This document shows positions 12,700 to 14,626 of a DNA stretch of 64,000 bases, one piece after another. The position numbers were made by a program, and so were the translations under genes. The first letter of the stretch is position 1. Each line of letters starts with the position of its first letter. This DNA comes from Hyphomonas chukchiensis. Lineage in GTDB: Bacteria > Pseudomonadota > Alphaproteobacteria > Caulobacterales > Hyphomonadaceae. The notes below the pieces were generated by a model. It worked only from the letters and a program-made list of their open reading frames with translations. It had not been told where the DNA came from and did not search any database. The DNA lies in assembly GCF_000682695.1 (NCBI RefSeq), contig NZ_AWFG01000010.1, positions 1 through 64,000 on the forward strand. The letters run 5' to 3'.

Positions 12700-13458
12700 C
12701 TAGCTGACGAAATCGATACAGTCGTCATAAATCTCGAACGACCAGCTGCTGGCCTGCTGGCGCTGCGTTTCCTCGGCAACGAAGGCGATGATGGCCTCGC
12801 GCTCTGCGAGCGGACGGCCCGTCACGCTTTCCCACCGATCCGGTGATGGCAGGTCAATGCTGAAATGGACCCGGCCAGTACACATCTCGTGCGGGAAAGG
12901 GATACGGATATCGCCGTCGACATAGGTGATGGTTCCGGCGCGGGCATTGCCGTCGAACTCAAGATGCCGACCAAACTGCGAAACCATTCGCCCCAGCACG
13001 CGCGCACGCAGCGCAAGGTCCTCGTCCGGAAGGATATTTCCAAAGCCGTCGCGGTATACGATGGGTCCAGTCGAGGGCTCGGGCTCTGGCATGGGTTCAG
13101 GCGGAGGTGCGATGCCTGCTTCCAGCTTCTCGAGCGGCAGGACATGGCACCAGCCATCGGAATGGTGGATCTCGATACGGTAAGGGCCGGGCGGCCACGG
13201 GAAGGTATCAATCAGAATCTGGACCCGGCCATTCAGGCGCGCCGTGACGTCTGCCTCGTCGACGACACCCCCGCCGGGGCCAAGAATGCAGAACCTGCTA
13301 TAACCCGCATAGCCGTCCTGCGGCAGCCATAACGTGACCTGCTGACTGCCGGGATAGCGCACGAACCGGGATGCAAGATCACCGACACCCGCCACCGCTT
13401 CGGACAGCGTCGTATTGCCCAACACGATCGCGCCTTCAAACCCTTCGCCACCTGTCAT
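12700..13458 (-). CDS. Unknown two-domain protein upstream of recQ
   Basis: A 252-residue protein I do not recognise. The N-terminal part (about 1-115) is beta-rich, with QQVTLWLPQDGYAGYSRF and GPYRIEIHHSDGWCHVLPLE, reminiscent of an immunoglobulin-like or carbohydrate-binding fold. A Pro/Glu linker (PPPEPMPEPEP) separates it from a mixed C-terminal domain with HEMCTGRVHFSIDLPSPDRWESV. No signal peptide or membrane segment is visible. It ends 55 bases before the recQ start on the same strand, so co-expression is likely; whether it works with RecQ is unknown. Confidence 0.7.
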   Translation of the reverse strand: MTGGEGFEGAIVLGNTTLSEAVAGVGDLASRFVRYPGSQQVTLWLPQDGYAGYSRFCILGPGGGVVDEADVTARLNGRVQILIDTFPWPPGPYRIEIHHSDGWCHVLPLEKLEAGIAPPPEPMPEPEPSTGPIVYRDGFGNILPDEDLALRARVLGRMVSQFGRHLEFDGNARAGTITYVDGDIRIPFPHEMCTGRVHFSIDLPSPDRWESVTGRPLAEREAIIAFVAEETQRQQASSWSFEIYDDCIDFVS

Positions 13459-13521: not shown

Positions 13522-13654
13522 CCCTCACCTCCCATCGCTGCGCGATGGGCCCCTCCTCTCCCAGAGGGAGAGGGGTTAAGTGGCTCTTCCGGTCAAACTC
13601 CTCTCCCTCTGGGAGAGGAGGGACCCGCGCCCGTTAGGGCGTGGGAGGTGAGGG
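13522..13654. repeat. 133-base inverted repeat with nested hairpins
   Basis: The left arm (CCCTCACCTCCCA... then CCTCCTCTCCCAGAGGGAG) is the reverse complement of the right arm (CTCCCTCTGGGAGAGGAGG... TGGGAGGTGAGGG). In each arm the middle is replaced by a different small hairpin: ATCGCTGCGCGAT on the left and CGCCCGTTAGGGCG on the right. It fills the gap between two minus-strand genes and ends beside the HDAC-like stop codon. It looks like a dispersed palindromic intergenic element. Confidence 0.7.
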
Positions 13655-13655
13655 C

Positions 13656-14492
13656 CTAGGCCAGCGCCGCCACCAAGCCGCAATGCCGCCGGGCGACAGC
13701 GCTGGCATCGAAGCTGTAGCCGCCGCCGAGGACGGCGCAGAGCGGCACGTCCGCTGAGGCGCAGGCCTCGGCCACAAAGCGGTCGCGGGCGGCGAGGCCT
13801 TCATCGCTCAGGCTGAGCAGGCCGAGGCGGTCGTCGGCATGGGGATCGACCCCCGCATTGTAGAAGACCAGGTCAGCCCCACTGGCGAGGGCTTCCGCGA
13901 CGAGCCTCTCCAGCGCTGCGAGATAGGCCGCGTCGCCCGTGCCTTTCGGCAGGCCGATATCAAGATCAGAGGGCGGCTTCTCGCGCGGCCAGTTCTGTTC
14001 GCAATGGAGCGAAGAGGTGAAAGCGCGCGGCTCTGATGCGAGGATCAAAGCCGTGCCGTCTCCATGGTGCACGTCGCAATCAATCACGGCCACGCGGCGC
14101 ACAGCGCCTTCTTCAAGGAGCAGCCTGGCCCCCACAGCGACATCATTGAATACGCAGAAACCCGCCGCGCCGTGGTCCAGCGCGAGGCGGGCCGCGAGGC
14201 AGGTGCCGCCGACAGCCGCGCGCGACCGCCGGGCAATCGCGGGCGTGATCTCGAATCCGATCCTGCGGGCGGCTTTGGCGTCCAGCGTCTGGCTGAGGAT
14301 GGCGCCGACATAGGCCGGGTCATGCGCCAGGTGCAGCCAGGCCTCCGGCGCCAGCAGCGGCTCGATGAAGTCATGGCCCGCCGCGCGGAGCATATCCGCC
14401 ACCAGCGCGTATTTGCGCATGGGGAAGCGATGGTCGTCCGGCACGGTGCGGGCGTCATAGTCAGGATGATGAACGAGCGGGAGCATGGGCAT
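13656..14492 (-). CDS. Histone-deacetylase-like protein lacking the tandem-His segment
   Basis: A 278-residue member of the arginase/deacetylase fold family (HDAC/AcuC type). The N-terminal VHHPDYDARTVPDDHRFPMRKY, the metal-binding DCDVHHGDGTA, FYNAGVDPHADDRLG and the terminal VLGGGYSFD are all conserved. The segment that normally holds two adjacent catalytic His residues, between the GGTCLAARLALDHG helix and GFCVFNDVAVGA, is missing: the sequence goes directly from HGAA to GFCVFND. Family members have about 16-20 more residues here. Without them, hydrolysis is doubtful. The ATG at 14492 (or 14486) gives the family-typical N terminus. It is divergent from the pirin gene. Confidence 0.85.
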   Translation of the reverse strand: MPMLPLVHHPDYDARTVPDDHRFPMRKYALVADMLRAAGHDFIEPLLAPEAWLHLAHDPAYVGAILSQTLDAKAARRIGFEITPAIARRSRAAVGGTCLAARLALDHGAAGFCVFNDVAVGARLLLEEGAVRRVAVIDCDVHHGDGTALILASEPRAFTSSLHCEQNWPREKPPSDLDIGLPKGTGDAAYLAALERLVAEALASGADLVFYNAGVDPHADDRLGLLSLSDEGLAARDRFVAEACASADVPLCAVLGGGYSFDASAVARRHCGLVAALA

Positions 14493-14626
14493 TGAGGTAG
14501 CGGATTTCGCAGCGGCGTCCAGCCATGCAGGAATCGCATAAATGTGATCCAGCCCCCGCCCTACACGAGATTTCCAGCCATGCCATATAGGTCTCAACAC
14601 CAACACATAGCTCATGGAGCACACCG

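Follow-up and report, generated by a model that had tools for sequence, protein, structure and literature searches.

A 48-bp in-frame deletion that removes the catalytic histidines probably makes an HDAC11-like deacylase gene of Hyphomonas a recent loss-of-function allele

Can a zinc-dependent deacylase that keeps its metal ligands, and lacks the tandem histidines of its catalytic centre, be a protein retained for another role, or is its gene in decay? The question is raised by an open reading frame in the window, the 64,000-nucleotide stretch of Hyphomonas chukchiensis DNA analysed here. The frame runs on the minus strand from an ATG at 14492 to a stop at 13656 and encodes 278 aa. Upstream of the ATG it stays open as far as a GTG at 14624, and its start, MPMLPLVHH, is common to both nearest sister species (G002 and G028). 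The product matches Pfam PF00850 with 150 bits against a cut-off of 27.9, covering profile positions 118-290 compared with 4-289 in an intact relative, and NCBIfam gives no family for either the intact or the deleted protein. The best PDB matches, by sequence and by fold, are entries of VcHdaH and HDAC11, which assigns this Hyphomonas gene to the class IV (HDAC11/VcHdaH-like) zinc deacylases; the AcuC family, with which the initial annotation had proposed comparison, is not its nearest relative. The features discussed below are as follows.

13656 to 14492, minus strand: HDAC11-like (class IV / cluster 5) deacylase gene of 278 aa with a 48-bp in-frame deletion (ORF list, Pfam PF00850, PDB sequence and fold matches, sister alignment)
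14162 to 14169, minus strand: deletion junction, where 48 bp of the sister species are missing and the edges slide over GCGG (alignment with G002 and G028)
14142 to 14165, minus strand: AGFCVFND, a conserved segment that now abuts LALDHGA (sequence and sister alignment)
14058 to 14081, minus strand: DCDVHHGD, with zinc ligands D140 and H142 and the orphaned His-partner aspartates D138 and D145, roles assigned by analogy (PMC11532494)
13830 to 13850, minus strand: VDPHADD, with the third zinc ligand, D216 (sister alignment)
13716 to 13727, minus strand: GGGY, with the catalytic tyrosine Y259 (sister alignment)

All three zinc ligands of the Asp-x-His ... Asp pattern (D140, H142 and D216) and the catalytic tyrosine that follows the glycine pair (Y259 of GGGY) are present in the window protein. 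The tandem histidine of classical zinc-dependent deacylases is deleted: the chain reads LALDHGA-AGFCVFND, with no His pair ahead of the conserved segment. DVHHGDG, GVDPHADD and GGGYS are kept and no HH stands before AGFCVFND. The initial annotation had described this combination and had put the gap at 16-20 codons. Its reading is borne out, as alignment with the two sister species, which have the gene at 92-93% identity, places a single in-frame gap of 16 residues (48 bp) at about position 14165. The residues present in G028 and G002 and missing here are AVNLAGGSHHAGPDGG. They hold both catalytic histidines, the end of a core beta-strand and the GG-x-HH foot-pocket motif that class IV / cluster 5 enzymes carry in place of RPP, which reads AGGSHH in the sisters. 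Both sisters possess the segment, and this deletion is confined to the window genome. Alignment with homologues does not place the His pair elsewhere: a scan of genome contigs kept 80 homologous loci, mostly from several alphaproteobacterial groups with a few others, and His-His is found at this segment in 80/80, as it is in all intact Hyphomonas homologues that we read. Neither chance nor the choice of alignment could account for such a gap.

Work on characterised bacterial deacylases indicates what such a loss would mean. One histidine of the double-His motif serves as general base/acid, and the two are linked to acidic partners in charge relays; in cluster 5 enzymes, the segment that carries them also lines the foot pocket, where the long acyl product is held (PMC11532494). 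With this segment deleted, the window protein has neither the base/acid nor the foot-pocket motif. By analogy with these enzymes, catalysis should be abolished, a conclusion in which we have high confidence.

On the gene strand, the junction reads GGCGCGGCGGGTTTC, and relative to both sisters the deletion is edged by a 4-bp exact GCGG microhomology. Outside the 48-bp gap, divergence from the sisters is smooth along the whole gene. Replication slippage or microhomology-mediated joining at GCGG may have generated the deletion, in one event that would have taken out catalytic histidines, foot pocket and strand end together; the frame would have been kept by chance, as in one deletion in three. 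Two other routes fit the DNA poorly. A 7-bp GGCGCGG repeat is found in sister G002, and its exact use as a recombination site would remove 51 bp, not 48; the folds of the intact segment vary among species, with no strong hairpin in common that could mark a hotspot. The earlier suggestion of a recent deletion between short GC-rich repeats is therefore supported, given an in-frame loss of 48 bp at a 4-bp GCGG, its absence from every relative and the unrelaxed selection described below.

To what extent the gene has since evolved without constraint can be read from its substitutions. By the Nei-Gojobori method, dN/dS between the window gene and the two sisters is 0.09-0.12, compared with 0.11 between the intact sisters themselves. 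The window branch carries 16 synonymous and 2 nonsynonymous private changes, where about 45 nonsynonymous changes would be expected had the whole branch been neutral. No relaxed selection is visible, and neutrality can be allowed for at most approximately 2-13% of the branch, depending on the constraint assumed. Therefore, either the deletion is young, falling within at most about that last 2-13%, or constraint persists on the shortened protein. The dN/dS test fits both equally and does not separate them.

The distribution of the gene in the genus bears on this choice. A DNA match to the deacylase gene is found in 12 of 42 Hyphomonas genomes, G011 among the carriers; the gene is accessory, and most members of the genus lack it. 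The carriers form one weakly supported clade (82/78) in a tree built on the pirin region, a single locus. Both sisters retain the flanking genes, pirin (upstream and divergent) and recQ (downstream). Two genomes interleaved with the carriers, G014 and G033, have lost the deacylase from this locus, where pirin is followed either by a DUF gene and recQ or directly by recQ, and the gene was not found elsewhere in either genome. The absence from G014 is less firm, as that assembly is 93% complete with 9% contamination, though its pirin-recQ locus lies on one contig. In G003 (L009), an independent deletion of 19 bp overlaps the corresponding part of the orthologue and shifts its frame directly behind GGSHHAGP. 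Within this one clade, separate losses or lesions appear to number at least four, and the deacylase is dispensable in Hyphomonas. No second HDAC able to compensate was found in the window genome.

The surroundings of the gene hold two further elements. An uncharacterised gene of 252 aa (window 12700-13458) lies between recQ and the deacylase; G002 and G014 have it at the same locus, G034 and G015 have it next to pirin, and none was found at this locus in G028 or in G011, the pattern of a patchy accessory gene. Directly after the deacylase stop lies a palindromic intergenic repeat of approximately 135 bp (window 13522-13654), with similar copies at about seven other places in the window genome at 77-87% identity. 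As the element is a palindrome, most copies match either way round, and it looks like a dispersed non-coding palindromic element.

AlphaFold2 models, built with 45-46 sequences, give a mean pLDDT of 96.5 for the intact H. johnsonii protein versus 90.9 for the window protein. Confidence in the window model drops to 73 at residues 111-120 and to 74 at residues 141-150, which include the zinc loop; the equivalent stretches of the intact model score 94-99. The short core strand that runs into the catalytic loop is formed over AAIN in the intact protein, and its counterpart in the window model takes up AAGF, pulling in the start of GFCVFND. A Foldseek search places both models nearest to VcHdaH, with an rmsd of 2.3 Å for the window protein versus 1.5 Å for the intact one. 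AlphaFold2 still closes the overall fold of the window protein with good global confidence. Because AlphaFold2 tends to retain a family fold despite damage, however, that global score is no evidence of stability, and the known HDAC mechanism together with the predicted model suggests that the product is probably destabilised.

The open frame, the conserved start and the unrelaxed purifying selection are equally what a retained pseudoenzyme would show, and they count against reading the gene as dead. Might the shortened protein, then, fold, bind zinc, perhaps along with some partner or ligand, and be kept by selection for a non-catalytic role? All other conserved catalytic residues persist, only two private nonsynonymous changes have accrued at a dN/dS of 0.09-0.12 and the predicted model keeps the overall fold. 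Yet a young deletion would leave dN/dS just as low. The deletion occurs in a single genome and took away the foot pocket and the last part of the core strand, model confidence falls precisely around the junction and in the zinc loop, and close relatives repeatedly lose or break the gene. We regard such a selected role as quite unlikely. The more specific notion, that one 48-bp step produced a stable bacterial HDAC11 pseudoenzyme which selection maintains and which binds zinc and a partner without catalysis, seems to us very unlikely. A literature search on bacterial HDAC pseudoenzymes returned nothing relevant. The initial annotation had offered a pseudoenzyme in which binding of metal, and perhaps of acyl-lysine, persists. 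Its zinc ligands are indeed kept, but as an evolved state it finds no support, given the lost acyl foot pocket and strand end, the weakened zinc-ligand loop and the repeated losses in the genus.

An unlikely alternative of another kind is that the 48 bp belong to the normal allele of the species and are missing through an assembly error or a mutation confined to the sequenced culture. The analysis covered one draft genome of the species, in 106 contigs, the junction lies among GC-rich quasi-repeats and the window branch has no trace of decay beyond the deletion itself. Nevertheless, an exact microhomology of 4 bp is too short for assembly collapse, so that collapse on long repeats is unlikely; the deletion is clean, in frame and set within otherwise smooth sequence, and genome completeness is 99.96% with 0.08% contamination. 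Between a retained protein and decay, the record of the clade tips the balance toward a young dead allele, as repeated loss and lesion mark an easily decaying accessory gene. We consider it likely that a recent, microhomology-edged in-frame deletion turned this HDAC11-like zinc deacylase gene into a loss-of-function allele. Relative to its near relatives it has lost a universally conserved functional segment, a criterion by which pseudogenes are recognised, and it very probably represents a dispensable gene that has died, not a new kind of protein. The deletion would postdate the separation from the nearest sister species and affects an accessory gene lost repeatedly in the genus; the gene may stand at an early stage of pseudogenisation, with other lesions still to build up.

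The locus is a clean natural case in which one small in-frame deletion inactivates an enzyme and leaves an open frame and most motifs behind. Genes of this type are likely to be annotated as active deacetylases because the Pfam match stays far above its cut-off. Beyond this annotation trap and the dispensability of the enzyme, what we describe is ordinary gene decay.

Comparison with intact systems defines what has been lost. The orthologues of Hyphomonas johnsonii MHS-2 (L034), G002 and G028, which occupy the same place beside pirin and are 80-93% identical over their full length, keep the 16-residue catalytic segment that the window protein lacks. The nearest solved structure by fold is VcHdaH of Vibrio cholerae (cluster 5b, PDB 9gkv/9gky), a lysine de-decanoylase with 38% identity to the window model and 40% to an intact Hyphomonas relative. 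Its fold and order of motifs are the same, and it shares the zinc ligands and GGGY; at its foot pocket and catalytic centre, however, it has 132-SGGYHH-137, equivalent to 138-GGGFHH-143 in human HDAC11 (PMC11532494), of which the window protein has none. By sequence, the best PDB matches are 9rje, 9gkv and 9gz5, from the class IV HDAC11 family with its clades A and B (C. reinhardtii, L. interrogans and human HDAC11, an enzyme that removes fatty acyl groups); the class IV paper cites 9RJE and 9RJD. In both clades the catalytic machinery is complete, with the two histidines in place (PMC13325672), in contrast to the window protein, from which the His pair is gone.
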